From Mycobacterium syngnathidarum (GTDB taxonomy: Bacteria; Actinomycetota; Actinomycetes; Mycobacteriales; Mycobacteriaceae): DNA of 64,000 nt. Of the stretch, positions 12,880-33,715 are shown in pieces. The notes beneath the pieces were generated by a model, which did no database searches, was not told where the DNA came from, and saw only the letters and a program-made list of their open reading frames with translations. The stretch is from positions 62,001-126,000 of the forward strand of contig NZ_MLCL01000023.1 of the NCBI RefSeq assembly GCF_001942625.1. The letters are read 5' to 3'. Each line of letters begins with the position of its first letter. Position 1 is the first letter of the stretch. The translations under genes and the position numbers were made by a program.

Positions 12880-12880
12880 G

Positions 12881-15731: not shown

Positions 15732-16795
15732 CAGTCCTCACCTGCGATCTCAGCGATCAGATCTTCGGTCTCGACTTCCAGAGCCCGGATGTCGGCCTGG
15801 ATCTCGGCGAGAGTCCGCATCGGTGCGGGCTTGTAGAAGTGCCGGGTGAAAGAGATTTCGTAGCCGATCTTGGTCTTCGACTCATCGATCCAGGCGTCCG
15901 CGGCGTAGGGCGTGACCTCGCGACGGAAGAACGCCTCGATGCCGTCGGCGTACTCACCGGGTGCTTCGGTGAGCGGCACCTGCTCCGTGTCCCGCAGTTC
16001 GGTGTCAGGCTCGTACTCGACTACGCGGGTGCGTCCGTCGATCACGGACTCGTAGCGGCCATGCAACGGATCGGGTTTCGCAGCATGCGGCAGTGCCTTC
16101 TTGATGATGGGAGACGCGGACTCGTCGCGAATACCATCTTCCTTGAGCGCCTTGATCTCCTTGGCGGTGTATACCTTGTTCGGGTCGACACCGCGGATCC
16201 GCAGTGGACGCTCGACCGTGATCTTCGAATAGCCGAATTCGATACCGTCTAATACCTTCGAGTGGTCGGGGTCTTCATACTCATCGAACGCCGTAAATGC
16301 CTCGAGGACCTTGTTGGCGTCGGTAGGACTAATCTCAACACCCTTCTCCCCGAGGTTTTTCCGAAGTGGGGTGGACCATCCGGTGGCGTCGATGAGTTGC
16401 ACTTTGCCCTTGCGGCGCTCCTCCTTCCGGTTGGTGAGCACCCATACATAGGTAGCGATGCCGGTGTTGTAAAACATCTTCAGCGGCAACGCGACAATCG
16501 CCTCGAGCCAGTCGTTTTCGATGATCCAGCGGCGCATGTTGCTCTCGCCCTGACCCGCATCACCGGTGAACAGCGAAGAGCCGTTGTGCACCGAGGCGAT
16601 CCGCGAGCCGCGCGGGGTGTCCCGCTTCATCTTCGAGATCAGGTTCGCCAGGAACATCAGTTGGCCGTCGCTGCTGCGGGTGACGAGCGAGTATTCGCTG
16701 TCGCCGTCGTGCGTGACGACGAAGCGCGGGTCGATGATTTTCTTCGCGCCACCGAGCCGGTCTTGGTCGGCCTTCCAGCTCTTGCCGTAGGGCGG
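15731..16795 (-). pseudogene. hsdM: RM1 HsdM, C-terminal fragment (from the NPPY motif onward)
   Basis: This is the 3' part of the resident type I methyltransferase gene, separated from its 5' part by a 16.9-kb insertion. The open frame enters from the element and becomes HsdM sequence exactly at CCG CCC TAC, reading PPYGKSWKADQDR. It continues with RSSDGQLMFLANL, HNGSSLFTGDAGQGESN and WVLTNRKEERR to a stop overlapping hsdS1. From TAC 16789 there are 352 codons before the stop. An internal start (M at 16657) might yield a useless fragment. It lacks the SAM-binding motif I, which is in the other half. Confidence 0.9.
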
Positions 16796-16820
16796 TTCCG
16801 TACAGGGTTTCGGCGTGTTG
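16789..16820. other. Left att junction (attL) and left terminal repeat of the 16.9-kb element
   Basis: Host sequence ends in CCGTA, followed by the 6-bp core GGGCGG (16790-16795). The element then begins with TTCCGTA (16796-16802), followed after seven bases by TCGGCGTGTTG (16810-16820). The same two blocks occur inverted at the right end (33687-33709). Confidence 0.8.
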
Positions 16821-16937
16821 CAAAATCCGGTGTGAGGAAGCCTTGGTAGTGACGCCCCTCAAGTTTGAATCCGTTGTAGTGATGAATAATCGATGGATCA
16901 CCCGCGCAAGGCTGTCGAGTAGTCGTAGCGTTCTGTC

Positions 16938-17885
16938 ATGTCCGAAACTCCCGACGTGAGCGTCCCGGCCAGCGAGCGAACCGTTGCTGCGATGCTCCCG
17001 CGAGAGTCGGTCCGCTCGGTCTACATCGACATGGTGTACTGCCCCGACGGCCCCGTTGCTACCAAAGGAAGCGAACTCCGTGAACTTGCCACAGGGACCG
17101 CGTTCTTCTATGAATCTGACGGGGCCAACTACCTCATCACGGCCTGGCACAACGTGACCGGTAAGCACCCGGAAACTGGTGAGTACCTCGGGGAGTACGC
17201 TGTATCGCCAACCCATTTCAGGCTGACATTCCTGGCGCCTCCTCCGACTGAGGCAGGCTGGCAGCTCACGGCATCGCCGGGCAACCCGACCACGGCGCAG
17301 GTACAGATGCCGATCAGTCAGTATCTGCTGCCGTTGCTACGTGAGGATTGGAGTCCCGCTTGGCTAGAGCACCCGGCACTCGGAAAGAGCATGGACGTTG
17401 TCGCGCTGTCGCTTGCGCGTCTCCCCGCACGAACGGTGTTGTCGAGGTGGAATGAACCTCGCACCGGCGTTGACATGTCGCAAGAGATCGAATGGCCTCG
17501 TTTGAGCGCCGGTGCTGACGTTTTCATCGTCGGATTCCCGTATCGCATTTCCACTGGGCCGTTCCTCCCACTGTGGATTCGCGGAACGATCGCATCCGAA
17601 CCGACATTCGGCCATATGCGCAACGGTGAGATCCTGCCACTGATGCTCGTCGACGCGCGTACGCGCAAAGGCCAGTCAGGATCACCGGTAATCCGGCATG
17701 TCCCGATGCGACAGTTTGTGATAGCCAAGGACGGGAAACCGGGTCTGAGCACCGGGAATCATTCTGAACTTGTTGGTGTGTACTCGGGACGAACAAGCGA
17801 CGAGTCCGACCTTGGATTCGTTTGGTTCGTTGATCAGATCGACGAAATCGTGAAGCAGGATCGGGAAGATTCCTCAGTGGACTAG
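16938..17885 (+). CDS. Trypsin-like serine protease (element cargo)
   Basis: This 315-residue protein has no signal peptide, so it probably acts in the cytosol. The chymotrypsin-fold triad is readable: His71 in LITAWHNV, Asp153 in KSMDVVAL and Ser247 in RKGQSGSPV. No C-terminal PDZ domain is seen. It is the only plus-strand gene in the element, 142 bp in from the left end, and converges on the ApeA-like gene. Trypsin-like domains occur as effectors in several bacterial defence systems, so a defence role is plausible, but no target can be named. The ATG at 16938 begins MSETPDVSV. Confidence 0.8.
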   Translation: MSETPDVSVPASERTVAAMLPRESVRSVYIDMVYCPDGPVATKGSELRELATGTAFFYESDGANYLITAWHNVTGKHPETGEYLGEYAVSPTHFRLTFLAPPPTEAGWQLTASPGNPTTAQVQMPISQYLLPLLREDWSPAWLEHPALGKSMDVVALSLARLPARTVLSRWNEPRTGVDMSQEIEWPRLSAGADVFIVGFPYRISTGPFLPLWIRGTIASEPTFGHMRNGEILPLMLVDARTRKGQSGSPVIRHVPMRQFVIAKDGKPGLSTGNHSELVGVYSGRTSDESDLGFVWFVDQIDEIVKQDREDSSVD

Positions 17886-17974
17886 CCGACCACCGCGGCG
17901 ATGCTGGGCAAAGCGACTCTCGACACCGAACGGGGCGCTACGGAGCGGAAGGCTGACCATCGTCGAGGCGCGCC

Positions 17975-19423: not shown

Positions 19424-19489
19424 GCGATGTCATGTTTCGTAATAGCGCGGCAATCCTGCGCCCTGGACTTGCCTCGCTCACCCCGCCCA

Positions 19490-20212
19490 CTACCCCCACT
19501 TCTCATCGGCCAGCGGAGCATCGTTGAGTCGATCGCGTCGGGTTCGCCAGTCGGGCATCGCGTCATCCATGAGCTTGGTGAATTGGTCGCCGTGGTTGCG
19601 CTCGAAGTAGTGCATCATCTCGTGAACGACGATGTACTCCAAGCAATCCGGATGTTTCTTGGCGAGTTCGACATTGAACGTCAGCCGCCGGGTTTCTCGG
19701 TTGCAGGTTCCCCATTTGGTGCGCATGCGACGGATGATCCAGTCCGGTACCCGGGTGTCGAGCTTTGACTCCCAGGTTGAGATCAAACCGGGGATGGCCT
19801 CGCGCAACTGCGTCCGGTACCAGGTGTCGAGGACCGTGCGGCGCTGCTCGGCGTCACGGTCAGACGACACGTACAGGATCAGTCGGTCACCATCGACCTC
19901 CACGTGGGCACGGCCCGGCCGTTCAACGACTTTGAGCCGGCGACGCACACCCCAGACGTAGTGCGATTCTCCGGTAACCATCTCGCGCTCAGACTGCCGG
20001 TCGGTCGAACGGAGTTGCGCGCGTTGGCGTTTGATCCACGGCAGTCGTTGGATGACAGCGAGACGCACTTGGTCGTCGCCGAGTCGCGTCGGCGCGGCCA
20101 CCCGCACGCGGCCCATCGGTGGATAGACGCCGATGTGCAGGTTCTTGATGTCCTTGTAGATCACGTCGACGTCGATGCCACGGATGGTGAGGTAGGCGTT
20201 AGCGGTACTCAT
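19490..20212 (-). CDS. YgjP-like (DUF45/M48-type) metallopeptidase
   Basis: This 240-residue protein contains the zinc-peptidase motif HEMMH at residues 197-201, with a third ligand at about His207 (NHG). It is preceded by the family signature WGTCNRETRRLTFNVELAK. YgjP-like genes are frequent companions of hsdR, for reasons not understood. Here the start overlaps the hsdR2 stop by 14 bp, indicating translational coupling to the RM2 operon. No signal peptide is present. Possible roles are regulated proteolysis of the restriction complex or of a phage protein; both are inference. Confidence 0.8.
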   Translation of the reverse strand: MSTANAYLTIRGIDVDVIYKDIKNLHIGVYPPMGRVRVAAPTRLGDDQVRLAVIQRLPWIKRQRAQLRSTDRQSEREMVTGESHYVWGVRRRLKVVERPGRAHVEVDGDRLILYVSSDRDAEQRRTVLDTWYRTQLREAIPGLISTWESKLDTRVPDWIIRRMRTKWGTCNRETRRLTFNVELAKKHPDCLEYIVVHEMMHYFERNHGDQFTKLMDDAMPDWRTRRDRLNDAPLADEKWG

Positions 20213-23200
20213 CGCGTGCCTTTACCAGTTCAAACAGTTCATCGAGTCGGTCGAAGTCGTCGGGCAGTGTGCGGCTGATCGCCCGCTTGACGACTTTCTC
20301 CTTCATCGTGTTGCCAACCCAGTCGTGCGGCTTGCTCGTCAGGATCGCGGTGTCCACTTGGATCGGCATCGTCGGGTCAGGCCATCCGAAGTCGATCAGA
20401 GCGCGGCGTGCGCCGTTGTCGGCCCAGTTGGGGTATTTAGTGTCGGATTCCTTACTGCCGAGCTTCTGGGCGGCGTCGAGCAGCTTGGCCAGGTACTCCC
20501 GGTAGTCGATGGCCTGCTGGCGGCGCTGTTCGATAATGGCGTCTAGCAGTTCGCTCATCTTGTCGTAGTACTTCGGGTTCATCGCGTGCTCGTCGATGAT
20601 CACCTTGCGCATGTTGTTGGTGATGGTCGCGGCGACCGCCTCGGGGTCGTTCTTGATCCCGGTGGGGAGCTTGTCGATCGCCCCGGCGCCGAGTTCGACG
20701 ATGAAGTCGATCAGTCCGGTGTCTTCGAAGTCGGAGACGACTTCCGACGCGCCGGCCTGGATGTAGGTGTCGAGCAGGAACCGCATGCCGGCTTCGTACT
20801 GCTTGAAGTCGACGTCTTCGCCCGCACCGAGTTTCACCTCAGCGCGCACGTCGACGTAGTGTGCGATCTCGGACTTGATCGCTTCTGCCTCGGCCGCGCT
20901 GTAACCAGCGGTGGTCATGTCGTTGGCGAGGTTGGCGTAGGCGCGGGTGACGGCGGCAACGGCTTTGTACAGCTCGACACGCTTGGGCTCGTTGGCCTTC
21001 AACTGTTCGGTGTTGCCCTGCTCGACGGCGCAGAAGTACTGCTGGTACTGCAGCGTGCTTTTCGGTGGCGCAACGGGTTCGACCAGGGCGCGGATATGTT
21101 CGAGCGCTTCATCGAGGTTTTCGCGGGCCTTCTCGATGCGGTCGGAGAGCAGTCCCTCGATGTCTTTCTTCTCGTAGCCGTCCAGTGCACCGGAGGTGTA
21201 GTCGGAGATCGCGGCTTTGAGCGAGTTGAACAGATCCTGGTAGTCGACGATGTAGCCATAGTCCTTGTCGTCGCCGTCGAGCCGATTGACGCGGCAGATG
21301 GCTTGGAAGAGGCCGTGATCGCGCATCTTCTTGTCGATGTAGAGGTAGGTGGCACTCGGGGCGTCAAAGCCGGTCAGCAGCTTGTCGACCACGATCAGCA
21401 GGCGCATCTGGCCGGGGTTCTCGATGAACTGCTTCTTGACTGCTTTCTCGAACTCTTCGACCTTGCCGACGGCGGCATCTTCGGGTTCGTCGAAGTAGTC
21501 GCCCAGCATCTTGCGGTAGATGTCGTACTGGCGAATCTTCTCGGTCTTGCCTTCGCCGGAGTCTTCTTTGGCAATGTCACTGGCGTTGGGGATGTAGCTG
21601 GTGACGATGGCGCACTTGCCCTTGAAGCCGGCGTTGCAGAACAGCTCGTAGAACTTGCAGGCCTGGTAGATGGATGAGCCGACGAGCATAGCGTTGCCGC
21701 GCCTGTCCATCAGGCGGGGCTTGGTCTCCATGTCGAGCAGGATGTCGTTGACGATCTGCTTGGCGCGTGGCTCACTGGAGACGACCTTCTTCATGGTGCC
21801 CCAACGCTTTTTGAGCTCAGCCTTAGACAGATCGGTCATGCCCTTGGTCTTGACTTCGAACCACTTGTCCACCAGCTCAGGTGACATCAGATCCTGATCG
21901 ATGTCGCGGGCCTCGTACTGCAAGTCGAGCACGACACCGTCGGGGACGGCTTCATTCAACTTGTACGTGTGGATGAACGTGCCGAAGGTCTCGATGCTGG
22001 TGGCTTTGTCGGCCTTGAGTAGCGGGGTGCCAGTGAAGCCGATGAACATTGCCTCGGGCAGCAACGCCTTCATGGCGGTGTGCATCTTGCCGGACTGGGT
22101 GCGGTGGGCCTCGTCAACAAACACGAAGATGTTGCCCTTGGCCTTGAAATCCTTCGGGACCGTGGCCTGCAGCTGCTTGATGAACTCGGCGGTCGCCTCG
22201 TCGTCATCCGTATCGCCGTCGGCGGCGCGGAACTTGTGCACTAGCGAACAGACCAGCCATTCCTCGCTGGCGTTGAGTGTGCCGATCAGGTCGGCGCCGC
22301 TCGTGGTGCGGTAGATCTGCTCGTTGACGCCACCAAACACCCTCTCGATCTGTTCATCGAGCTCCGTGCGGTCAGTGATCAACAGCACCCGCGCATCGGG
22401 CTGGTTCTCACGAATCCACTTGGCCAGCCACACCATCGTCAAGCTCTTGCCCGAACCCTGGGTGTGCCAAATGATGCCACCCTCACGCTTGGCTATGCGC
22501 TCCTGCGCCGCCTTTACGCCGAAATACTGATTGTGACGCGGGCACTTCTTGACACCCGCGTCGAAGACGACAAAATCGTGGATCAATTCGAGCAGACGCG
22601 GTTTGCTACACATCTGGAGCAGCGCTCGGTCGAGTGGATCCTCGACGTCGGACGGTTCTTTCCATTCCAGCCAGTACTTCTCCGGTGTGTCGATGACGCC
22701 GTAGCGTAACCCTTCGACGTCGTTGCCGGCGAAGACGAACTGCACGGTCGAGAAGAACGAGCGGATGAACTCCGGCTTCTGATTGCCGATGGTCTGTCGG
22801 ATACCTTCGGACAGAGCAACTTTGGAGCGTTTAAGTTCCAGCGTCGCGAGCGCCAGTCCGTTGACGTACAGCACCACATCGGGGCGCTTGGTGTGGTGGC
22901 CGAGCACCGTAACTTCTTCGACCACGGCGAAGTGGTTGGCGTCCGGGTTCTTCCAGTCAATCAGCCAGACCGTCTGGCTCTGTTCGCCCACGCCGGGCTT
23001 GACCTTCACGCCGTAGCGCAGCAGGCCGTAGACGTCCCTGTTGGCCTCGTAGAGGTCGTGGCCGGCGCCGACAGAGGCAGCTTTACCGAGTTGATCGAGG
23101 GCGCGGTTGATCAGGTTGTCGTCGTAGCCGCGAGCGCGCAGGTTCTGCACCAGCAGCTCAGTCTCGACGTTCGCGTTACCCTCGCGGTACCCCCAATTGC

Positions 23201-23285
23201 CGAGGTAATCGTAGCCGAGCTGGTCGCGGAACAGCGCGACTATGCGGTTTTGGGCTTTGCGCTCGACTTGGCCGACGTCGCTCAT
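20199..23285 (-). CDS. hsdR: Type I restriction enzyme R subunit (RM2 HsdR)
   Basis: This 1028-residue nuclease/translocase belongs to the element-borne RM2 system. The N-terminal endonuclease domain shows VVLYVNGLALATLELKRSK (Asp...ELK catalytic pattern). The motor has Walker A HTQGSGKSLTMVWL, the DEAH box VFVDEAHRTQSG and GFTGTPLL. A long C-terminal helical domain follows. It resembles a different HsdR subfamily from RM1 HsdR and is not a duplicate of it. The start ATG overlaps the upstream HEPN gene stop by four bases. It looks full length and intact. Confidence 0.92.
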   Translation of the reverse strand: MSDVGQVERKAQNRIVALFRDQLGYDYLGNWGYREGNANVETELLVQNLRARGYDDNLINRALDQLGKAASVGAGHDLYEANRDVYGLLRYGVKVKPGVGEQSQTVWLIDWKNPDANHFAVVEEVTVLGHHTKRPDVVLYVNGLALATLELKRSKVALSEGIRQTIGNQKPEFIRSFFSTVQFVFAGNDVEGLRYGVIDTPEKYWLEWKEPSDVEDPLDRALLQMCSKPRLLELIHDFVVFDAGVKKCPRHNQYFGVKAAQERIAKREGGIIWHTQGSGKSLTMVWLAKWIRENQPDARVLLITDRTELDEQIERVFGGVNEQIYRTTSGADLIGTLNASEEWLVCSLVHKFRAADGDTDDDEATAEFIKQLQATVPKDFKAKGNIFVFVDEAHRTQSGKMHTAMKALLPEAMFIGFTGTPLLKADKATSIETFGTFIHTYKLNEAVPDGVVLDLQYEARDIDQDLMSPELVDKWFEVKTKGMTDLSKAELKKRWGTMKKVVSSEPRAKQIVNDILLDMETKPRLMDRRGNAMLVGSSIYQACKFYELFCNAGFKGKCAIVTSYIPNASDIAKEDSGEGKTEKIRQYDIYRKMLGDYFDEPEDAAVGKVEEFEKAVKKQFIENPGQMRLLIVVDKLLTGFDAPSATYLYIDKKMRDHGLFQAICRVNRLDGDDKDYGYIVDYQDLFNSLKAAISDYTSGALDGYEKKDIEGLLSDRIEKARENLDEALEHIRALVEPVAPPKSTLQYQQYFCAVEQGNTEQLKANEPKRVELYKAVAAVTRAYANLANDMTTAGYSAAEAEAIKSEIAHYVDVRAEVKLGAGEDVDFKQYEAGMRFLLDTYIQAGASEVVSDFEDTGLIDFIVELGAGAIDKLPTGIKNDPEAVAATITNNMRKVIIDEHAMNPKYYDKMSELLDAIIEQRRQQAIDYREYLAKLLDAAQKLGSKESDTKYPNWADNGARRALIDFGWPDPTMPIQVDTAILTSKPHDWVGNTMKEKVVKRAISRTLPDDFDRLDELFELVKARDEYR

Positions 23286-24007
23286 GGAACGGCCTCCACG
23301 TCAGACTGATCGACCCAGCGACCCAGCACACTAAGTGCCGCGAGGTACTCCAGCGCCTCCTGCTCGCTCAGTTCCTGGTCGACCTCATGACTCAGTGGAT
23401 TGCGGATACCAGCGAAGATGCCTTCGGCCAGGCTCATCGCGCCACGCTGCACCGATTTGTAGGTGTCGCTGCCATCATCTTTGACTCGACGCAGACGTGA
23501 CTTTCCAGGTTTTGGCTCGTCCAAGGAGAACACTTGTTTGAACAGGTCAGTCTCGCTCACATCACGGCGACCGACCTTGTTCTGCGTCTCGGCGTTGAGC
23601 TTTCGAATCGCGCCACCGACCGCTTCGCGATAGTGGCCAGACTGCCAAAGCGACTTGGCGCCTTCCCAAATCCACGCATGAAGCTCCGCCGCAGAAAGTT
23701 CTGGCGCGTTCTCACCGAGGTTCTCCCGGACTTCCTCAGCGCGAACAAGCTCCTCACGAGCTCGAATCGAGGCCTCGTAGTGGACTGACCACTTCTGACG
23801 ATCCTTCTTCTTGATCTCGCTTCGCCAACCCGGAACAACTCGATCAAGAATCTGCTCAATAACCTGGGCACGTTTGACGACTTCGTCCTCAGGGATCGCT
23901 GTCTTATAGCTATGGAAGCCGATCGAGTTCGGCGGAGAAGGGACATAAGTCACGGTCGTGGCCCTGATGAATTCGTCGAGTTGCTCGATAGCCCATTCGG
24001 TGTTCAT
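23282..24007 (-). CDS. Ymh/TIGR02391-like HEPN protein embedded between hsdS2 and hsdR2
   Basis: This is a 241-residue protein with a C-terminal Ymh-type (TIGR02391) domain. The stretch AELHAWIWEGAKSLWQSGHY through SLAEGIFAGIRNPLSHE is typical, and RNPLSH (Arg202, His207) is an R-x4-H HEPN RNase motif. The N-terminal 100 residues are charged and partly helical. It overlaps hsdS2 and hsdR2 by four bases each, so all three are translated together. In EcoprrI the anticodon nuclease PrrC occupies the same position between hsdS and hsdR and is held silent by the RM complex. A similar guard role is an attractive inference, not shown. Confidence 0.72.
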   Translation of the reverse strand: MNTEWAIEQLDEFIRATTVTYVPSPPNSIGFHSYKTAIPEDEVVKRAQVIEQILDRVVPGWRSEIKKKDRQKWSVHYEASIRAREELVRAEEVRENLGENAPELSAAELHAWIWEGAKSLWQSGHYREAVGGAIRKLNAETQNKVGRRDVSETDLFKQVFSLDEPKPGKSRLRRVKDDGSDTYKSVQRGAMSLAEGIFAGIRNPLSHEVDQELSEQEALEYLAALSVLGRWVDQSDVEAVP

Positions 24008-25239
24008 GACGCTGCCTCCAAAGGCAGGCGGACGCGGCCAGTCAGAAGCTGCTGCATCATGCCGTCTTTGATGGCGCGCGCCTTGGCGAGTCGCCTATCG
24101 AGTGCGTCAAGTTCATCATCTACGTCCCGAATTGCCACACCGATCGCAGCCTGCTCTTCGAGGCTTGGCTGATCCAATGGAATCGCCGAGACCTTGCTGG
24201 CACTGATCTCAAGGAACGTACTGCCAGCTGCGCGAGACTCAAATTCTGATCTGTTCTGCTGAGTCCAGTAGTAAAGAAACCAAGTTGAGCGCGGGTCTTT
24301 CGGGATCATCGATGCGAAACCCTGGTTTGTCGTCACCGGCACCGCCGCAACGGCACAGTTGCCGATGCTTGCACGTGAAGTCACCAATACGGTTCCCGCG
24401 GGCAGCAAGGACGCTGCAGAGCAGGCAAGTCCTTCTGCAGTGATGGTTCGTGCCGAGTGAGACACAAGACCCGAACCATTTGAGCGAATCTCCGCAGGGG
24501 TAAACCACGGGATGCGCCCACCCCAGTATGCATTGATACCGGTCGAGGGAGTCCCACCACCCGTCACTCGTGCAAGACCTCCAAGGGTAGATTCTCTCCA
24601 GTCGTCCTCAAACCCTGGCAGGCGCGTGCGGCCAGTCAGGAGCTGCTGCATCATGCCCTGCTTGATCGCCTGCTTCTTGGCGATGAGGCGTTCGAGGGAG
24701 GCGATTAGGCCGTCGGCATCAGCAAGCGCTTGTGCGATGGACTCTTGCTCAGCTTTCGACCGTGGAAAGTGAACGGTCAGGGATCCGAGTGAGCGCTGAT
24801 TAATGTTCGTATTGGCGCTCACCGTGCTCGCACTGATAACCCGAGTACGAAATCCCGCCTCAGAGAACAGATATGCCTTAAATGAGTTGGCCAACCGGCC
24901 ATCGCTGCGAAAGCGCAACAGAAACCCGCTGAATACGGTGTCGGGCAATGAGCTGGTGACCAAAGTGGCGAGGCCGACCCCACTCGGCTTTACCGACGAG
25001 CGGACGAACAGAACGTCACCTTCGCGAAGACCATAAGTTCGGCGCTCGGCCTTCGACGAATCGATCAACCCCAGCGTAGTCGCTTCACCTATCGCGGCGA
25101 CTCCGAACACGTCCATAAGATTCACGAACGGGAAGCCATGGCCGAACGAGTCTGAACCCTTGTTGATCCCGTTCTTGAAAGCACCAAGCTCAGTGAGAGT
25201 GGCCTCACTCCAATCCTTCGGCAATAGGGACTTACTCAT
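24004..25239 (-). CDS. hsdS: Type I restriction-modification specificity subunit (RM2 HsdS)
   Basis: This 411-residue subunit directs RM2 to its DNA target. Two target-recognition domains (about 1-150 and 215-360) are each followed by a conserved helical spacer. Both spacers end in near-identical text: IKQGMMQQLLTGRTRLPGF after the first and IKDGMMQQLLTGRVRLP at the C terminus. The first domain begins LPKDWSEATLTELGAFKNG. The gene overlaps hsdM2 and the Ymh gene by four bases each. Its sequence is visibly richer in A+T than the flanking chromosome, as is common for hsdS genes that move between hosts. Confidence 0.92.
   Translation of the reverse strand: MSKSLLPKDWSEATLTELGAFKNGINKGSDSFGHGFPFVNLMDVFGVAAIGEATTLGLIDSSKAERRTYGLREGDVLFVRSSVKPSGVGLATLVTSSLPDTVFSGFLLRFRSDGRLANSFKAYLFSEAGFRTRVISASTVSANTNINQRSLGSLTVHFPRSKAEQESIAQALADADGLIASLERLIAKKQAIKQGMMQQLLTGRTRLPGFEDDWRESTLGGLARVTGGGTPSTGINAYWGGRIPWFTPAEIRSNGSGLVSHSARTITAEGLACSAASLLPAGTVLVTSRASIGNCAVAAVPVTTNQGFASMIPKDPRSTWFLYYWTQQNRSEFESRAAGSTFLEISASKVSAIPLDQPSLEEQAAIGVAIRDVDDELDALDRRLAKARAIKDGMMQQLLTGRVRLPLEAAS
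24034..24063. repeat. Internal repeat of hsdS2 (copy 1)
   Basis: These 30 bp match 24628-24657 at 29 of 30 positions. They encode the MMQQLLTGR segment that ends each conserved spacer. Such repeats can support exchange of target-recognition domains by recombination. Confidence 0.75.
24628..24657. repeat. Internal repeat of hsdS2 (copy 2)
   Basis: This is the direct-repeat partner of 24034-24063, differing at one base. It lies at the junction between the first target-recognition half and the second. Confidence 0.75.
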
Positions 25240-27665
25240 TTGACCCCCATATCGGTCAAATGACCCGCCACCTTCGCCTCAAGATCGGCTAGTTCGGATT
25301 CGAGTGCACCAACGGTCGATGCGTAGCGTTCGCCTAGTAGCTGGATGCGCGCAACAAGGTCGAGCGTGAGCGCTTCGACTTCACCCGCGACACGTCGCAC
25401 AACGGTTGCCTGCCATTTGTCATCGAGCACGAGTGTCTTGATCTCGACTTCGGTCAGCTCGCCGTACTTCTTGAGGGTGGCCAGGTCGAGTTTGGTCTGG
25501 GCGTCCTTGACCGCCTTCTTGGCGGCCGCTTCGGCGTTGAAAAGCTTGGTGGCATGCTGCAGGGCCTTGATCTCGTCCGGATCGCCGCCGGATTTGATCG
25601 CCTTCAGTCGCGCAGCAACGAGCACCTTGGAGATCTTGTCTTCCTCCATGGCATCGGCGAGCAGCCCGTCTTCGACGCCGTGTACCTCGACGTATTCCTC
25701 GACGGCGCGGGTAGCCTCCTCGGCTGCAGCAGCGAGGTCGTCGACCTTGGCCTGCTCGTTGGCGAAGTAGCGCGCAACGATCAGTGTGGGTGGAATGAGG
25801 TCCATCTTGTACTTGGTGGCGCTACGTCCGGAACCGACCACGAGGTCTGGGGTTTCGGTGAGCTTGCGCTCCTTGTCTTCGATGGTCTTTCGCGGCTTGG
25901 CGGCATCCTGCCAGCCGTCGGCCATGATCAGGTAGACGTCGTCGTGCATGGTGCCGTGCCAGTAGGTCATGAGCTGTTCGTAGACGTCGTACTCGTTGAG
26001 TAGCGGCATTGGCTTGAAGCGTGCCAGCAGGTCGTCGCTGATAGTGGCGATGAGCTCGTTCGGCGTGGTGTTAGGGGTGATGCCGGCCAGAGTGTCGCGG
26101 TACGTGGTGAGCCAATCCGCGACGATTCCGGTGGCTTCGTCACGGAGCTTGTGGAAGCCGGGTGCGTCGAAGATGGCCTGCTGCACGGCGCTGACGTCGA
26201 TGGCGAGGTCGCTGTAGCCGGGGCGGTTCGGGGTGAAGATCTGACTACGGAGCTGCGGGAAGGCGTCCCAATAGCTTTGCAGGGCATCGAGGTCGCGGTC
26301 GGGGATGCCGCCGTGCAGGTGGGCGGACAGGTCTTGCAGATCCTCAGGTTCGGATGAGTCGATGTAGCGCGGGATGTTGAGGTTGTAGTCGTTCTTGGGG
26401 TCGGCGATCTCGCTCATCGGCACCATACGTGAGTAACGGTCGATCTCGATCTGCTTGTTGAAGGTGTCAACGACCTTGTGGATATCCTGGCTACGGAGGC
26501 GGTTCTTGTTGCCGTCCTTCATGAAGCCCTTGGATGCGTCGATCATGAAGACGCCCGTGCGTCCTACCGCGTTCTCCTTGTCGAGGATCACCACGCAGGC
26601 CGGGATGCCGGTGCCGTAGAACAGGTTTGCCGGCAAACCGATGACCCCCTTGATGAAGCCTTGCTTGAGTAGACGGGCGCGGATGGTGGCTTCGGCGTTG
26701 CCGCGGAACAACACGCCGTGCGGCAAGATAATCGCGGCCTTGCCGGTGCTCTTGAGCGAGGTGAGGGCGTGGAGCAGGAAGGCGTAGTCCCCGTTCTTCT
26801 CCGGTGGGCGGCCGTATTCGAAGCGGCCGTAATCGTTCTCCAGGCCGTTGTTCCACGACTTCACCGAGAATGGCGGATTCATGACGATGTAGTCGAACGT
26901 TCGCAGGTGGTCACCCTTGGTGAACTTCGGACTGGTGATGGAGTCGCCCTTTTCGATATCGGCGATCTCGTTACCGTGCAGGATCATGTTCATCTTGGAC
27001 AGCGCCCAAGTGGCATTGTCCTTCTCCTGGCCGTAGATCGTCATGCCGCGTGGCGCTTCGGCGGCAGCCTTGAGGAGTAGTGAACCGGAACCGCAAGCGG
27101 GGTCGTAGACAGTCTGGTCTTGGCGGGTGTTCGGCCCGATCCCGACCACTTTGGCGAGTATGCGGGAGACCTCAGCGGGCGTGTAGAACTGACCCTTGCT
27201 CTTGCCTGATTCGGTGGCGAAGTGGCGCATCAGGTACTCGTATGCGTCGCCGAGCAGATCGTCGCCTTCGGCGCGGGAACCGCGGAAGTCCAGATCGTTG
27301 AAGATGGTGACCAGCTTGGAGAGACGGTCTTGCATTTCCTTGCCGTTGCCGAGCTTCTCCTTGTCGTTGAAGTCAGCCTGGTCGATGACGTTGCGCAGAT
27401 CGTTGGCTTCGGCCAGCCGGGCGATGATCTTGTTGAAGCGGTCGCCGATCTCCTTGTCGCCCTTAGCGGCGAGCATGTCGTCGAACGACCCGCCCGCAGG
27501 TACCTCGATGAGGCTGTTGGCGTCCGTCTTGGCCTTGTCGGAGACGTACTTCACGAACAGCAGCGTCAGGATGTAATCCTTGTACTGGCTGGCGTCCATG
27601 CCACCGCGCAGTTGATCACAGCTCGCCCACAGCGATGAGTAGAGATCCGACTTCTTCAACGCCAC
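25236..27665 (-). CDS. hsdM: Type I DNA methyltransferase subunit (RM2 HsdM)
   Basis: This 809-residue N6-adenine methyltransferase belongs to RM2. The N-terminal helical HsdM domain (DLYSSLWASCDQLRGGMDAS) is followed by the SAM-binding motif YDPACGSGSLLL and the catalytic motif MNPPFS. A long C-terminal extension of about 300 residues, much of it coiled coil, is typical of one HsdM subfamily. I chose the GTG at 27665 because AAAAGGAG lies eight bases upstream (27674-27681); the frame runs open to 27767 without homology. It is the first gene of the coupled RM2 operon. Its catalytic codons read CCGCCA TTC, not the CCGCCC TAC that the element used as target. Confidence 0.92.
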   Translation of the reverse strand: MALKKSDLYSSLWASCDQLRGGMDASQYKDYILTLLFVKYVSDKAKTDANSLIEVPAGGSFDDMLAAKGDKEIGDRFNKIIARLAEANDLRNVIDQADFNDKEKLGNGKEMQDRLSKLVTIFNDLDFRGSRAEGDDLLGDAYEYLMRHFATESGKSKGQFYTPAEVSRILAKVVGIGPNTRQDQTVYDPACGSGSLLLKAAAEAPRGMTIYGQEKDNATWALSKMNMILHGNEIADIEKGDSITSPKFTKGDHLRTFDYIVMNPPFSVKSWNNGLENDYGRFEYGRPPEKNGDYAFLLHALTSLKSTGKAAIILPHGVLFRGNAEATIRARLLKQGFIKGVIGLPANLFYGTGIPACVVILDKENAVGRTGVFMIDASKGFMKDGNKNRLRSQDIHKVVDTFNKQIEIDRYSRMVPMSEIADPKNDYNLNIPRYIDSSEPEDLQDLSAHLHGGIPDRDLDALQSYWDAFPQLRSQIFTPNRPGYSDLAIDVSAVQQAIFDAPGFHKLRDEATGIVADWLTTYRDTLAGITPNTTPNELIATISDDLLARFKPMPLLNEYDVYEQLMTYWHGTMHDDVYLIMADGWQDAAKPRKTIEDKERKLTETPDLVVGSGRSATKYKMDLIPPTLIVARYFANEQAKVDDLAAAAEEATRAVEEYVEVHGVEDGLLADAMEEDKISKVLVAARLKAIKSGGDPDEIKALQHATKLFNAEAAAKKAVKDAQTKLDLATLKKYGELTEVEIKTLVLDDKWQATVVRRVAGEVEALTLDLVARIQLLGERYASTVGALESELADLEAKVAGHLTDMGVK

Positions 27666-27806
27666 CTGGTGCGCTCCTTTTCCTGCGATCTCGGCCGGTG
27701 CTCGGGGTCTGATGCGTACCCGCCCCGGCCCGACAAGTCTGTCAGCATCAAGACCATTTCTGGGCAAGTCGGGCCACGCGCGCCCCGCATACCGCTGGAC
27801 ATGGCG
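27666..27806 (-). other. Promoter-containing gap before the RM2 operon
   Basis: This 141-bp gap lies between the recombinase module and hsdM2. It should hold the RM2 promoter. No confident -35/-10 pair or operator palindrome was recognised by eye. Confidence 0.3.
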
Positions 27807-28220
27807 TCATGAGCCGCCGCCGGTTCGCAGCGGTACGACTTTGCGCAGGCCCGGGTCGCTTGACCGGAGTTGCTGGTTTTCCAGCGCCAGGACCTGGATG
27901 ATCCGCTCCAGCTGATGAATGGTCGAGGTGAGCGCCGTGACCTCGGCGGTGAGTTCTTTCACGCGCTTCTGAGCGTCGGTCTTCTCCTCGCGGAGTGCCT
28001 CCAGGATTGGGGGCTCGGTGTTGGTGCTGGCGATCCGGGCACGGAACTCGTCCTGGAGGTCGGTGTGCCGGTGGGTGAGCAACCAGCGCTTGACGCAAGC
28101 CTCGACGGCGAGTGACTTCACGGTGAGTTTGCCGTCGGAGTGCAGTGGGCTGTCGGCGATAAGCCGGTCCATCGCGTCGCGGATCGCGCGGCGGACCTGT
28201 TCATCAGCCTGCTCGGTCAT
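27807..28220 (-). CDS. Small coiled-coil protein of the recombinase module (DUF6262/TnpC-like)
   Basis: This 137-residue protein has a helical N-terminal half (DEQVRRAIRDAMDRLIADSP, then TVKSLAVEACVKRWLLTHRH). A strong coiled coil runs from about 75 to 120 (REEKTDAQKRVKELTAEVTA, then LENQQLR). It begins ATG at 28220, overlapping the stop of the third recombinase by four bases. In Tn554-type transposons a small TnpC protein takes this same last position after the recombinases and affects transposition efficiency and orientation. An equivalent accessory role is likely here. Confidence 0.7.
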   Translation of the reverse strand: MTEQADEQVRRAIRDAMDRLIADSPLHSDGKLTVKSLAVEACVKRWLLTHRHTDLQDEFRARIASTNTEPPILEALREEKTDAQKRVKELTAEVTALTSTIHQLERIIQVLALENQQLRSSDPGLRKVVPLRTGGGS

Positions 28221-30361
28221 CGCGGCTTCCCATCGTTCTGATGCTCGTCGACGAGGGCTTGAAGGGCGATGATGCGTTGTTCGAGCCGGCCGCGCAGCGG
28301 TATCGGCGTTGTGGGCGAGGCGATCTCGGCCTGGTGCCGAGTGACTGCGTCGACGATCTGGGCGATGTTCTGGTCGGTTCGGGCGATATTGCCGCATCCG
28401 GGTTGACAGTGCGAGACATCAGGTGATCGGTGCTGGCTTGCCGTGATCTGCCGGTCGGGGTGGCACAGAGCCTTGGACTGGTCGTAGCAGCAGGTGACGA
28501 ACTGTTGCGGGTTGTCGTAGATGCGCAGCTGGGGATTGGCGCGCAGGGCAGCTGCCTGCTTGTTGCTCATGTAACGGCCGCGGAATTGCCGGTCGAAGGT
28601 GTGGATGGCCTGGGTGTATCGGCCGGCGGCTGGGCCGCTGACCTGCTCACCGCTTTCGAGGCGTTGATGTGCGTCTTCGAGGTAGTCGGCTCGGGCGAGG
28701 GCCTCCTCCATCGGAAAGACGTCTCTGAGACCGCTGGCGACCCGTGATCCGTAGCCATCGGTGGTGTAGCCGCGTAGGTGCCCGTACTGCACGCCGAGGG
28801 CCACTCGGCCGCCTGGCTTGCGGTAGATGAACCAGGCCAGCGTGCGCCTGAACCGCTTGACGGTCACGGCTTCCTCGGGATCGGCGGGGATCACCTCGTG
28901 GGGACGTTCGAGCCTCACGGCGGCGCGATTGCTCCAATCGATCAAGTCCTGGATTCGGTCCCGGACCATGCGGGCGTGCACGGCTTTCCCCGCGTTGACA
29001 CCGCAGGGCCATAGCGAGAACGCGTCGATCGGAAACAGAAGTTGAGAAGTGGGGTTCAGTGCTTCCATCACGGCAACGGCTTTCGCCACCGGCGCGATGG
29101 CCAGCCAGGGTTGTTCCCGTTCGACGCCGGCGGGTATTGCGTTGCCCGACTTATCAAGTGCACCTTTGAAGGTTCTGCCGTGAAGACGGTAATGGAGTTG
29201 CCCGGTCGCGGGATCGGTGTGGGTTCGGCAGCCGCCGCGCTCCAGTGCGCGGCACTCCTCGCCCCGCATCCCGGTCAGGTAGGCGATGACCACGAACGCG
29301 GCGGTGGCCAGATGGCGGCATAGCTCCTCGACCTCGTAGAAGTTGATCGACGGGGTCCAGTCCATTCCGTCGACGGAGGCGGTGATCGGCATGGGCAGAT
29401 GCGCTTCGTCGCTGGCGCTCAGGCCGGCTATCGGCCAGTGCGAATTCATCACCTGTGTCTCTTCGGGAGACAGGCCCAACTGCCAGCCGATGAATCCCTT
29501 TGCCAGAGAACGCATGTGCGGCCGATTGGAAGCTACCCACCCAGGCACCGTCTGTGAATCCCGACGCCGCTCTTCAACATACGCGCGAAACCGTTGATAG
29601 GGCGTCAGAGCCTGGAGGCTCGCCGGAACATCGCAAGGTGTCGCTTTCAGTGCCATTGCGGTCAGGATGTCGTCGCTGAAGTCGGTGACGAAGCGCAGCG
29701 CCCAGACCAGAAGGCCGGCCATCGTCTGCGGGTGGATGGGGGCGGTCTTGTTCTCACTGGACCAGTTGGCGGGGCCGAGCACCGAGGTGCGTCCGATATG
29801 GCTGTTCTCCCATGGTGGGCGTGCGAGACGGTCGGCTTCGGGGAGGTAGGGAGCGTAGAGCCAGGCACGGGTGACGGCGAAGAGTATGTTGCCCACGTTC
29901 TCTCGTGAGCCGCGGTGTCGTTTGAGATGCTCCGCATATTCGTCGTAGATGGCATCGGTGACCGCGCTGAACTCGTGAATGTCCTTCTCTGCCAGCCACG
30001 TCATCCACTGCCGCAGGAATCGCGCGAACGTGCAAACGGTTACCGGCGCGAGTTGACTACGCGCCGCCGAGGAGCGCTCCAGATCCTCGACCGGTGTCGG
30101 CTTGTTGATGCTCGCCCAGATCAATCGCTTGGCCGTGGCGACATAGTTCGGCGGGAAGGTGTCGAAGGCGATGCTCAACTTGCCCGACACGGTCTGTTTC
30201 TGCACCAACGGTGTGAGATCCCATCGGTTGGCGCCCACGGTGGAGAGATTTCCTCGCAGTGCTTCAGGCACGCGCTCAATGTCGGCGATAACAGGTTCGG
30301 CGTCGTCAAGTTCGAGCTGACCAGTCTGTGGTGACCACGAGTTGGCTGCTGCGGTGCTCAC
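28217..30361 (-). CDS. Tyrosine recombinase C of the element (714 aa)
   Basis: This is the third of three overlapping recombinases. The C-terminal catalytic domain shows the first arginine in AYLTGMRGEECRALE. A second-arginine block is present as KRFRRTLAWFIYRK. The GH-to-Tyr block reads VQYGHLRGYTTDGYGS. A long tail beyond the catalytic tyrosine contains a Cys/His cluster (CCYDQSKALCHPD, then HCQPGCG) that could bind zinc. The N-terminal 280 residues include a core-binding domain. GTG 30361 overlaps the previous gene by four bases. It is probably needed with recombinases A and B for integration and excision. Confidence 0.82.
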   Translation of the reverse strand: MSTAAANSWSPQTGQLELDDAEPVIADIERVPEALRGNLSTVGANRWDLTPLVQKQTVSGKLSIAFDTFPPNYVATAKRLIWASINKPTPVEDLERSSAARSQLAPVTVCTFARFLRQWMTWLAEKDIHEFSAVTDAIYDEYAEHLKRHRGSRENVGNILFAVTRAWLYAPYLPEADRLARPPWENSHIGRTSVLGPANWSSENKTAPIHPQTMAGLLVWALRFVTDFSDDILTAMALKATPCDVPASLQALTPYQRFRAYVEERRRDSQTVPGWVASNRPHMRSLAKGFIGWQLGLSPEETQVMNSHWPIAGLSASDEAHLPMPITASVDGMDWTPSINFYEVEELCRHLATAAFVVIAYLTGMRGEECRALERGGCRTHTDPATGQLHYRLHGRTFKGALDKSGNAIPAGVEREQPWLAIAPVAKAVAVMEALNPTSQLLFPIDAFSLWPCGVNAGKAVHARMVRDRIQDLIDWSNRAAVRLERPHEVIPADPEEAVTVKRFRRTLAWFIYRKPGGRVALGVQYGHLRGYTTDGYGSRVASGLRDVFPMEEALARADYLEDAHQRLESGEQVSGPAAGRYTQAIHTFDRQFRGRYMSNKQAAALRANPQLRIYDNPQQFVTCCYDQSKALCHPDRQITASQHRSPDVSHCQPGCGNIARTDQNIAQIVDAVTRHQAEIASPTTPIPLRGRLEQRIIALQALVDEHQNDGKPR

Positions 30362-32178
30362 GCGTCGAGATTCCTTCCGATGAGCGCAGTGACGACTTCG
30401 CGATCAGCGTCGGTGACATGGCGGCGGGCATCGCCGATCTCGGCGTTGGTCGCGTTCTGTTCGAGAATCGCTTGCAGTCGGGCGTAGTGGTCTCGGTAGT
30501 CCGTCTCCCATCGGGCCGGGGCAACGAGGGTGGCCACGTTGTCGAGGGCATCAAGCAGCGTGACCAGACGCGGCAGATGATCGGGGGTGATAACCGCGTT
30601 CGTGCAGGTAAAGCAGGCGAAGAATGAGGCCGGGCACGGTTCGCCCGCGGTGGCCGCGAACGGGCTGTTCAAGAAGTCGGTGCACGCGGTGGTGGCGGTG
30701 TCGAGGTGTCCCGCAAGCAGTAGCTTCAGTGTCGGCACCGGGATACCCAGCTGTGTCGCGGCGGTGTCCGGATCTCTGCGGGCGGCAATCACCTCGGCGG
30801 CACTCAGCGAGCGGATCGCGACCGTGGCTCTGGCGTGAGCCACAGCATCGGCCTGTCCGTCAATGATGGTGTCGGCAGCCTCGTCTGCAGTGGCCGGGTC
30901 GGGGCTGCGGTAGGTGTCTTCGCTGACGGATTCGCTGTTCTGCCGGGCATGTTGGTTCAACACCTGCTCGGACAATCGCAGCCGTCGCAGACTCACCCGC
31001 AACGGTGTGCCGTCGTCTGCCAGCAGGCCGGCATCGGCCATGTAGTGATCGCCGATTCCCGCGGTCAACCATTCCTGCCGGAACGGGCCATCGTCGGTGA
31101 GGTTCTTGTGCCGGTGGGCGATGAGCAACTTCTCCGACGGGGTTCCGAGCTGTGCAAGTGCGGTGCGGCATGGCTCGGTCAAGCGGAGAGCGTTCTCCCA
31201 GAGCTTTCCGGCCTCGCCGGCGAGGATTTCGGCGCTGTAGCGCTTGGTTCCTCTTCTCGGTTTGTCGGTGTTGACGGTGTATACCGAGTCTTCACCGGCA
31301 CCGTCGGATGCCCTGAACGACGTCACGGTGAGGTTGTCCATGACGGAGAGGTTGAACCCTCGCTCGCACACGAGAAGTACCATCAAGCAATAGATTTCCC
31401 GTATCGACGGGAACAGTGCCTGCGCCGGATTGGACACACCGGCCAGATCGAAGCAGCCCTTGAGGACCACCCGGTTGGCGAGGTACTGAGTAGGAAGCAT
31501 CCCGTTTCGCGACAGATACTCCAGCAGGGATCCTGTGCTCCACCGCTCCCCGCCGACCTTGAACGTGATTCCGTCACCGACATCACCAACCGCGCGGTAC
31601 TGGTACAGCCTCTCGGTGTTGGTCCGGATTCTGCGGAGCGCTTGGCGTACCTCGCCCTTGGCGGCACTGCGGATCCGCCCGAACTCGTCGCGACTGTAGG
31701 AATCATTCTCCGGTAGGCGTTTCCGAGGCTTCACAGCCTTCGCGCGCATCGCCTTCCGTGTGGTTTCGGAAAGTCGTGGGGACTCCGACAGCACGGCCCG
31801 CATGAGATTCACTTGCCCCGGCCAACGGGCCTGGCTTTCCTTGACAGTCCGCCACGCCCACCACACCTCGGGCCCGAAATCGGCGATCGAGTGGACGTCG
31901 GGGAACTCCGTCCCCAGGTAGGTGATCAGTTGCCGCGCGGCGCCCACCGCCGCGTCGACGGTCGCCATTGTGCGCCAACGGCCACCGGATTGGGACCCGT
32001 TTGCCAGCGCGGTGACGAGGTCGTCGATCAGTTCAGCGGGCCCGTGGACGTCATCGAATGAGAATGTCTTCGTGCGTCCCGCCTCGTCGGTGAAGCAGAG
32101 CTCTCGAAGCTCAGGGTCCACTGCTGCGGGTCGGGCGTACTTGCCGGTGGGGAGTGCCGCTGTCCTACGCGAGGCCAC
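30358..32178 (-). CDS. Recombinase B of the element, divergent tyrosine-recombinase-like (606 aa)
   Basis: This is the middle gene of the trio, with GTG 32178 three bases after recombinase A ends. A recombinase-like catalytic region is suggested by LRVSLRRLRLSEQVLNQHA followed by NSESVSEDTYRSPD, where the tyrosine would be the nucleophile. The usual LLGH box is not evident, so activity may be reduced or structural. A CPASFFACFTC cysteine cluster lies in the C-terminal part. Its position and size recall the middle member of recombinase trios, which can be catalytically divergent. The assignment to the family rests partly on context. Confidence 0.65.
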   Translation of the reverse strand: MASRRTAALPTGKYARPAAVDPELRELCFTDEAGRTKTFSFDDVHGPAELIDDLVTALANGSQSGGRWRTMATVDAAVGAARQLITYLGTEFPDVHSIADFGPEVWWAWRTVKESQARWPGQVNLMRAVLSESPRLSETTRKAMRAKAVKPRKRLPENDSYSRDEFGRIRSAAKGEVRQALRRIRTNTERLYQYRAVGDVGDGITFKVGGERWSTGSLLEYLSRNGMLPTQYLANRVVLKGCFDLAGVSNPAQALFPSIREIYCLMVLLVCERGFNLSVMDNLTVTSFRASDGAGEDSVYTVNTDKPRRGTKRYSAEILAGEAGKLWENALRLTEPCRTALAQLGTPSEKLLIAHRHKNLTDDGPFRQEWLTAGIGDHYMADAGLLADDGTPLRVSLRRLRLSEQVLNQHARQNSESVSEDTYRSPDPATADEAADTIIDGQADAVAHARATVAIRSLSAAEVIAARRDPDTAATQLGIPVPTLKLLLAGHLDTATTACTDFLNSPFAATAGEPCPASFFACFTCTNAVITPDHLPRLVTLLDALDNVATLVAPARWETDYRDHYARLQAILEQNATNAEIGDARRHVTDADREVVTALIGRNLDA

Positions 32179-32181
32179 CGC

Positions 32182-33687
32182 TCACTGCTCCTCGGTGTCG
32201 ACGATGCCGGGAGCCGCCGTCGCGATGTGTGTGATGAAGTCGGCGATCGATGCGTCGTCGGCCATGTCGTCATTGAGGAACAGGTCGACCTGCAGGCCCG
32301 ACACCGGTTCGAGATAGCAGTCCCGCGTAGTTTCCAGGTTCGCGTGGCCAAGTAATGTTTGAACCAAAACCCAAGGGTCCCCGAAGATGTGGCGATACTC
32401 GCGCCGTTCGGCAGGGGTGATGCCCATCTTGCGTTCGTGTGCGTAGATCAATATGACCAACATCCTCAGGGCGAACGAGTGGCGCAGCATATGCGGGTGA
32501 CAATGGATGTCTACCCCAAGGGTCTGACACCGATCGTTGGCCGTGGAGAAGATCGCCTCCCAGGTGCGGTAGGGCAACGGCAGGCCGGCTTCGGACAGCC
32601 AGACCATCCAGGGTTCATTCCCGTGATCAGTGGTGATGTAGAAGTTGAGTCGATCATTCGCGTCGAGACTGTCCAGCGGTACTGTCCCCTTACTGCCGTC
32701 CCGGTTGGTGAAGTGGACACGGCGGTGATGGTCCACCGTGTCGACGATTTTGATGTCGGTCAGTGCGTCGTAACGACCTTCGGAGCGGGCTCGGTGAACT
32801 GCCGCGGCTCGGGTTGAAATCCGGTAGTTGTCAATGTGTTTCAGTGCTGCGGTGCTGATCCAGAAATCGCGGCCGCGACCTTTCGCGACGGCTTGGCCGA
32901 CTCGGGCCTTGGCGTAACGCACTTGGCTGTCAGCGTTGGGGATTTCTCCCAGGACGAGTGTTCCGGCTTCACGCAGTCGCAGTCCGCTCGACCACAGCAC
33001 TTCGGCGAACGCCAGATTACGGCCGTCGTTGCGTCCTCGCCACGTCGCATCCCGCCGCCCGTCGCCGCGGTAGCCGCCGAGGCCGACGTCGCGCCAGCGC
33101 TTGTATGCCCGGGGCGTCAGCCACTTCAATTGGACCGAGCGGACAGCACTCGGGTGCAGCCGCGTGAAGTCCGAGTCCCCGGTCGAGTTGGGCTTGTGCA
33201 GGGCTACAGGAGAAACAGCCACGTTGCCGCGCCACTGCTGCCAGTCGTAGAACTTCTTGATTGCGGCCAGATCCCGTGAAAACGTGGCCGCACCAACACG
33301 ATACGGGTTCTTCTGGTCGCGTCGCCGCCAGAACTCATAGTCGGCAAGATGCTCGAACGTCGCCGTTCTCCAGTCGATGCCTTGAACGGACAGGAAGGAG
33401 AGAAACAGCTGGATGTCCGGGGCGTAGGCCTCCTGCGACCCGGCCGCCAACGATTGGAACGCTGCCGAGCGGAAGAATTCCAGGGCCTCAACGTCCGGTC
33501 GACCATCGGGCATCAGGAGAAACGGCTGCCCCGGGCGGATTCCGAGCGCAGCCTCACGCTCGGCTAGATCGGGGAAGTCTGCAAGGACATCGGACCTCGC
33601 GGTGTACGGCCGGTTAGGCTGCCGCGCCCAACACAACCTCCAGCGGGAGTCGTCGTCGTGTTGTTCCACAGCAACAGAACCTGCCAC
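32182..33687 (-). CDS. Tyrosine recombinase A of the element (501 aa)
   Basis: This is a canonical tyrosine recombinase. The catalytic set is visible as Arg in SSGLRLREAGT, the box HPHMLRHSFALR and TLLGHANLETTRDCY, with Tyr458 as likely nucleophile. A SAM-like core-binding domain fills about residues 70-190. The start is GTG 33687, only 22 bp inside the right end of the element and within its terminal repeat. There is therefore no room for its own promoter in the integrated state. Transcription probably enters from the hsdM1 promoter outside, or across the joined ends in a circular form. Confidence 0.88.
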   Translation of the reverse strand: MAGSVAVEQHDDDSRWRLCWARQPNRPYTARSDVLADFPDLAEREAALGIRPGQPFLLMPDGRPDVEALEFFRSAAFQSLAAGSQEAYAPDIQLFLSFLSVQGIDWRTATFEHLADYEFWRRRDQKNPYRVGAATFSRDLAAIKKFYDWQQWRGNVAVSPVALHKPNSTGDSDFTRLHPSAVRSVQLKWLTPRAYKRWRDVGLGGYRGDGRRDATWRGRNDGRNLAFAEVLWSSGLRLREAGTLVLGEIPNADSQVRYAKARVGQAVAKGRGRDFWISTAALKHIDNYRISTRAAAVHRARSEGRYDALTDIKIVDTVDHHRRVHFTNRDGSKGTVPLDSLDANDRLNFYITTDHGNEPWMVWLSEAGLPLPYRTWEAIFSTANDRCQTLGVDIHCHPHMLRHSFALRMLVILIYAHERKMGITPAERREYRHIFGDPWVLVQTLLGHANLETTRDCYLEPVSGLQVDLFLNDDMADDASIADFITHIATAAPGIVDTEEQ

Positions 33688-33715
33688 AACACACCGACAT
33701 TCTACGGAAGGGCGG
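33687..33715. other. Right att junction (attR) and right terminal repeat of the 16.9-kb element
   Basis: CAACACACCGA (33687-33697) and TACGGAA (33703-33709) are the inverted counterparts of the left end. They are followed by the shared core GGGCGG (33710-33715) and host hsdM1 sequence. Joining right end to left end gives TACGGAA-core-TTCCGTA, a perfect 7-bp inverted pair around a 6-bp core. Confidence 0.8.

Follow-up and report, generated by a model that had tools for sequence, protein, structure and literature searches.

The window analysed here is a 64,000-nucleotide stretch of contig NZ_MLCL01000023.1 of Mycobacterium syngnathidarum. It contains hsdM1, the methyltransferase gene of a type I restriction-modification (R-M) locus, which is interrupted at the two proline codons of its catalytic motif IV (NPPY) by an element of 16,914 bp (cores excluded) that carries tyrosine recombinase genes. 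Relatives of its recombinase A are found at the same codons in several families of adenine methyltransferase. On the minus strand, hsdM1 reads to ...FDFMLSNPP (TCC AAC CCG CCC), with a core CCGCCC at 33715-33710, and the element then runs from 33709 (TTCCGTAGAATG...) to 16796 (...CCCTGTACGGAA). A second CCGCCC occupies 16795-16790 and leads into TACGGCAAG (PPYGKSWK; CCG CCC TAC GGC AAG). An earlier note on this DNA had placed a 16.9-kb element at the NPPY codons of hsdM1, which is correct to the base; its claim that CCGCCC, the two proline codons of motif IV, is common to both junctions is likewise confirmed. Fusion of the flanks at a single core gives 657 codons with no stop. The two ends form an imperfect inverted repeat (TTCCGTAGAATGTCGGTGTGTTG; TTCCGTACAGGGTTTCGGCGTGTTG when reversed), with TTCCGTA in both. 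Downstream, HsdS1 and HsdR1 of the same locus still have open reading frames, which suggests that the insertion into hsdM1 is recent. No match to the right hsdM1 flank of the window was found in plasmid records.

Four adjacent genes, encoding recombinase A and proteins B, C and D, lie at one end of the element, with the cargo behind them (Table 1). In recombinase A, R237, K269, H399, R402, H448 and Y458 are invariant in 23 aligned sequences. Protein C retains R366, K399, R503xxR506, H528 and Y537, the first His of the HxxR motif being replaced by Arg. Both B and C are predicted to carry recombinase folds, and a counterpart of B was found in the window and in relatives. In one relative, the Mycobacterium poriferae element L001, an IS21 pair is located at 18092-20513, between recombinases A and B; because it separates the A and B genes, this copy may be inactive. 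Outside the element, in the interrupted locus, hsdS1 and hsdR1 are separated by a gene (12881-14011, minus strand) whose product combines a helix-turn-helix and an IrrE-type peptidase.

Table 1 Features of the element and of the interrupted R-M locus in the window.
Feature	Position	Strand	Remark
HsdM1 N-terminal part, type I R-M methyltransferase, ends SNPP	33710..34621	-	N6_Mtase 6e-22, HsdM_N 1e-21
attL core CCGCCC, two motif IV Pro codons	33710..33715	-	
Left terminal repeat TTCCGTAGAATGTCGGTGTGTTGTGG	33684..33709	-	Conserved in relatives
Recombinase A, 501 aa, tyrosine recombinase	32182..33687	-	Catalytic residues in alignment
Protein B, 606 aa, tyrosine-recombinase fold at residues 39-418, Tfp/GinC-like	30358..32178	-	Predicted fold
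Protein C, 714 aa, large tyrosine recombinase	28217..30361	-	Residues and predicted fold
Protein D, 137 aa, small, coiled-coil-like, in srap/ginD/tnpC position	27807..28220	-	Weak matches only; open reading frame of same length annotated in L001
Cargo HsdM2	25236..27767	-	
AATCCGCCATTC, HsdM2 motif IV, candidate target for a further element	26868..26879	-	
Cargo HsdS2	24004..25239	-	
Cargo Hypoth_Ymh protein	23282..24007	-	
Cargo HsdR2	20199..23285	-	
Cargo YgjP/SprT-like metallopeptidase	19490..20212	-	
Cargo ApeA-like HEPN protein, candidate phage defence	17975..19423	-	
Cargo trypsin-like peptidase-domain protein	16938..17885	+	
Right terminal repeat ...CAACACGCCGAAACCCTGTACGGAA	16796..16821	-	
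attR core CCGCCC	16790..16795	-	
HsdM1 C-terminal part, starts PPYGKSWK	15731..16795	-	
HsdS1, interrupted locus	14340..15731	-	
HsdR1, interrupted locus	9934..13053	-	

Relatives of recombinase A were collected from plasmid records (40 of 200 were listed, and those were followed), from GTDB genome contigs and by whole-genome searches. With query P0085, a class-level sample of 394 genomes returned the known genome G002 and two matches of 43% and 37% identity. At E<=1e-60, 10 genomes were found in an order-level sample of 397 and 47 in a genus-level sample of 396. Viral contigs and phage records yielded no relatives. A protein search, which lacks genomic context, scored 370 homologues at E<=0.001. 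The insertion target was read from the bases upstream of A, whose start is 22 bp from the left end of the element in almost all cases. This gave 19 readable left ends with A about 50% or more identical. Two loci were excluded because the start of A is lost at a contig end (L057, L072), and L054, L013, L047-L051 and L056 repeat loci already counted.

Seventeen of the 19 left ends immediately follow an [N/D]PP read in frame in an adenine methyltransferase gene, and one more is at the motif with an irregular core. The expectation of the earlier note, that a majority of relatives would interrupt hsdM or other NPPY-type genes at the same codons, is thus borne out by 18 of 19. L010 and L011 share flank and core; when L011 is dropped, the tally is 16 perfect ends of 18, one irregular and one exception. 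Among 25 evaluable diverged relatives that served as a control (A at most 47% identical; near-duplicates L065-L067, L019-L021 and L060/L061 included), no case of an in-frame [N/D]PP within an open frame was seen in the 150 bases upstream. In a tree of 39 recombinase A sequences, made without L011, L037 and element 2 of L007, the 15 motif-specific rows and L005, the exception, are separated from the rest by a branch with support 100/99. A chance coincidence of one insertion with conserved codons in one genome would account for the single locus and nothing beyond it; with 17-18 of 19 left ends in agreement, this explanation is refuted and its probability is negligible.

About 14 distinct target genes, counted by flank identity, family and sequence, are hit across these left ends. 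Ten N-terminal halves were run against Pfam and PADLOC, and nine of them match methyltransferase, R-M or related defence-methylase models (PADLOC, E<=1e-10). They comprise type I methyltransferases (window, L003, L006), type IIG/ISP enzymes (L001, L002, L012), a type III methyltransferase (Mod; L004), an HmaB/DUF1156 protein (element 2 of L007) and a DISARM-like DrmMI/IIG protein (L055, read from L082). The tenth, from L008, is a 59-aa fragment whose Pfam match to Eco57I is below the cut-off. Judged by their flanks, L009 and L053 are in hsdM, and the L052 target has 77% DNA identity to that of L002 over 333 bp. The gene hit by L037 is 'type ISP' by the record annotation on the far side, and L007 element 1, L010, L011 and L046 occupy alleles of target genes already listed.

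The recombinases do not sort by target family. L002, an element on a Rhodococcus plasmid, and L003, with A identical at 425 of 430 aa, are nevertheless in an ISP and an HsdM gene, respectively, and L006 and L046 (487 of 501 aa identical) are in an HsdM and an ISP gene. Because near-identical recombinases occupy different methyltransferase families, the motif is the target. The same observation bears on whether this is an ordinary integrase island of the integrative and conjugative element (ICE) or integrative and mobilizable element type that uses hsdM as a gene-specific attB. Such a use has precedent in streptococcal ICEs, which are known to integrate into hsdM (PMC4701971). However, the targets include type I, ISP/IIG, type III, Hma and DISARM-like methyltransferases, which have the motif in common, and no relaxase, Xis or conjugation gene was recognised among the element open reading frames given to Pfam (oriT was not searched). 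We therefore consider an island of this type very improbable.

Uninterrupted alleles indicate what the sites look like when empty. Among 30 inspected relatives of hsdM, 26 read without interruption across SNPP. The other four are the insertions of G002 and G003, L095, which is broken otherwise, and L100, the detached upstream part of the G556 hsdM that holds the L053 element. All five relatives of the ISP target are uninterrupted, and a Mycobacterium vanbaalenii plasmid matches just part of the ISP left flank. The elements of G002 and G003 carry different cargo and interrupt one hsdM allele at exactly the same position, with flanks identical over 600 bp on each side. The sequences thus establish that the position recurs in several methyltransferase families, that insertion is precise and that the inverted-repeat termini are conserved. 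In L095 and L100, hsdM breaks into unrelated sequence just upstream of motif IV, possibly through other insertions in the region.

The cores themselves vary in a restricted manner. In the left-end cores (n=18, L037 excluded) and the right-end cores (n=8), variation is confined to positions 3 and 6; because in the methyltransferase genes these are the third (wobble) positions of the proline codons, every core variant there encodes Pro-Pro. The two ends of an element have different cores in six of eight cases, and all eight base differences are at positions 3 and 6. L005, the eighth two-ended element, is outside a methyltransferase gene and has cores of the same form.

These differences allow the native core to be identified. 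The M. poriferae element has CCGCCG on the left and CCGCCT on the right, and uninterrupted alleles of its site (one 99% identical on both sides, another 94%) have CCGCCT. G002 and G003 have left cores CCGCCG and CCGCCT, respectively, and CCTCCG as the right core in both. From these alleles, the right (A-distal) core is read as native and the left (A-proximal) core as imported, directly for the M. poriferae allele and by inference for the pair. Published work on SE elements gives the opposite rule, with the imported 6 bp at C' (attR) and the native 6 bp at C (attL) (PMC9345347, PMC10214605). It could be supposed that this rule holds here too, the A-distal core being imported and the A-proximal core native, and that later exchange or mutation produced the apparent reversal. 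The supposition draws support from the shared gene order (intA-tfp-intB-srap) and 6-bp footprint (PMC9345347, PMC10214605). It conflicts with the 99% identical uninterrupted allele, which carries the attR core, and with the allele whose flanks are identical at 600 of 600 positions, where the attL cores differ and the attR cores agree. On balance, we regard it as unlikely.

The explanation that we consider highly probable is that this is a GInt/SE-like element whose recombinases recognise the DNA encoding motif IV, with exchange at the 6-bp core on the two proline codons. Several observations weigh against it. L005, with an A 93% identical, is intergenic after mobF with core CCGCCT and no methyltransferase gene, so motif IV is not obligatory. 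A Mycobacterium dioxanotrophicus plasmid was considered as the empty site of L005 and rejected, its junction being too different to decide the native core. L037 is at the motif after GNP of a type ISP gene and has an irregular core. L053 is preceded by a short hsdM stretch only; because the remainder of the gene is 2.7 kb upstream, this target has also been broken in another way. The sampling covers one clade, mostly Mycobacteriaceae, and several of the targets are genes related to one another. Only eight elements could be read at both ends, the polarity of the native core was deduced from a single intact allele and a single pair of alleles, and the Foldseek matches for B and C all have E values above 0.001.

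The density of the motif also counts against this explanation. The 12-mer RAYCCNCCNTWY occurs twice in the 64-kb window, at the hsdM1 junction and in motif IV of cargo HsdM2. In 400 kb of one host genome it occurs six times (about 15 per Mb), and AAYCCNCCN 95 times in the same sample. Only two of the six sites are in frames open over 100 codons on either side, and neither of these two is recognisable as a methyltransferase. At this density, some 60 sites are expected in a 4-Mb genome; the preference is therefore not explained by the 12-mer alone, and more bases or the survival of insertions must add to it. One alternative is survivorship, in which the element inserts at many loosely similar sites and the insertions in methyltransferase genes persist because the host can do without these genes or gains from losing them. 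The motif density and the one intergenic insertion indicate that other sites exist and are usable. Yet insertions in unrelated methyltransferases coincide to the base within these codons, whereas random insertion into dispensable genes would scatter along the gene. Moreover, four of the six sampled motif sites are outside long open frames and might often tolerate insertion, yet only one of 19 left ends is non-coding. Survivorship of this kind thus seems to us improbable, and slightly more so than a conserved SE rule. Sequence recognition is favoured because the register is identical to the base in unrelated enzymes.

The specificity inferred for this group does not extend to all relatives. The earlier note suggested that the element may have evolved to use motif IV as its attB, which would offer a target in almost every bacterial genome. 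The first part is supported by the relatives; the second describes a potential only, all placed members being Actinomycetota. It also stated that relatives at unrelated sites with no NPPY-like target would refute the idea. Such cases exist in L005 and in relatives at most 47% identical, which are elsewhere, but 18 of the 19 closer relatives are at the motif. The diverged relatives appear, from the genes that they interrupt, to use other conserved coding motifs as sites. The left ends of L058 and L059 (A about 40% identical) follow ...ITVYTKPACVQ. This sequence resembles the active-site CxxC of a redoxin of the NrdH type and would be a further catalytic motif used for insertion. The left ends of L016 and L065-L068 interrupt a gene for a membrane permease, presumably PstA, at ...RIVIPTA, and Pfam assigns the L065 piece to BPD_transp_1. 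Those of L019-L021 are in a Y-family DNA polymerase gene at ...LSPLVEPVSI (Pfam IMS 2e-27 for the L019 piece), a site that we assume to be near the catalytic motif of the polymerase. L014 and L015 (A about 46% identical) have left ends at ...LV[IV]PEDIEF of one gene type, which in our estimation resembles dprA; the L015 target piece had no match in Pfam.

Cargo was examined in eight of the 19 elements, namely those of the window, L001, L002, L004, L037 (record annotations for the last four), G002, G005 and G556. Defence-type genes are located behind the recombinases in all eight, and a methyltransferase gene is part of the cargo in seven. For G556, the two open reading frames given include a helicase-type match only. 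Because no right end could be located for L002, L004 or L037, the genes after the recombinases were taken as their cargo. G003 has one element nested within another: the second (A 62% identical) occupies motif IV of an hmaB-like gene in the cargo of the first.

By gene order and kind, the element appears to be GInt/SE-like, and we claim membership of neither group. As in SE elements, a catalytic recombinase, a recombinase-fold protein, a large recombinase and a small protein are ordered at one end (intA-tfp-intB-srap), a likeness in order and kind only. Imperfect terminal inverted repeats, a 6-bp core from the donor, few preferred targets and variable cargo are also shared. Unlike in SE elements, the core polarity is reversed, with the native core at attR, the target is a protein motif common to several gene families, and the host is actinobacterial. 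Idola et al. report tfp-srap from Gammaproteobacteria only (PMC9345347, PMC10214605). When B was compared with plasmids by tblastn, none of the best 40 of 210 matches was from a named gammaproteobacterium; for C, the best 40 of 273 included one, Klebsiella, at E 5e-3.

GInt elements (ginABCD) likewise have three recombinase-like genes and a small fourth gene at one end with cargo behind, and they are site-specific. A 6-nt staggered exchange with att variants and R-M genes among the cargo have been described for them (Bardaji 2017, PMC5385486), and both are points of likeness. The incomplete recombinase is second here (B) but third in GInts (GinC), and C keeps R, K, RxxR, H and Y. According to the available part of the same source, GInts are at the ends of ssb and other genes, probably without fully inactivating them; a motif-wide target is not described there, and the hosts are Proteobacteria, Bacteroidetes, Firmicutes and Verrucomicrobia, with a wider range expected by Bardaji et al. 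(PMC5385486). No report of GInt/SE-kind machinery in Actinobacteria was found in the available portions of the SE and GInt papers (PMC9345347, PMC10214605, PMC5385486).

Other multi-recombinase systems are less similar. Recombinase in trio (RIT) elements share the three adjacent recombinases, but the archetype RIT proteins have 315-410 aa, all with the catalytic tyrosine, and there are three coding regions (PMC10214605), unlike the 501, 606 and 714 aa plus D found here. The Tn554 family shares the 6-bp footprint and the combination of an ordinary recombinase, a large recombinase and a small TnpC (PMC10214605). It differs in that Tn554 (TnpA-TnpB-TnpC) has no counterpart of B and uses a single conserved target gene. 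This gene is radC. Streptococcal ICEs with serine-integrase triplets disrupt hsdM, other targets being mutT and traG (Ambroset 2016, PMC4701971). The disruption of hsdM and the three recombinases are points of likeness, the ICE repeats being 2-8 bp; serine recombinases and conjugation modules set these ICEs apart (PMC4701971). The earlier note knew of no described family at this site. For the motif IV codons, no description was found in titles or abstract openings of the open literature, but hsdM as such was already on record as an ICE target (PMC4701971).

If the recombinases recognise motif IV-coding DNA as proposed, a circular intermediate with the 6-bp core between its ends would carry the core of its former site, and integration at another motif IV would place this imported core at the A-proximal end. 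Core swaps would be synonymous, with only CCN-CCN cores circulating. Because the exchange of cores would be silent, excision would restore an intact motif whichever core stays behind. Insertion inactivates the methyltransferase already present. For enzymes of types I, III and ISP/IIG, nuclease activity requires the methyltransferase subunit or domain. Because the nuclease would fall with methylation in such enzymes, the system would be lost without self-restriction, and its loss would be tolerable. The element would supply its own R-M or defence cargo, so that one defence system would be exchanged for another. We lean, by a modest degree, towards a broader proposal, namely a clade whose attachment site is a catalytic motif and not a gene. 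Its cores would be exchanged synonymously and its excision would always leave a functional enzyme; it would replace resident restriction and other defence systems linked to methylation with its own, the target in its cargo would let elements nest, and the wider family would use other conserved motifs.

An integrase typically targets a single conserved gene. This element targets a short catalytic motif present in several defence-gene families, and it could therefore land in any adenine-methyltransferase system of its host and exchange it for its own. The recombinase set comes with a testable sequence rule, in which the wobble positions would be tolerant and the others strict. The findings also indicate that Actinobacteria harbour multi-recombinase elements of an SE/GInt-like kind whose core rule appears to be reversed. 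They would provide a concrete route for the turnover and nesting of defence islands, and would explain some split methyltransferase genes.

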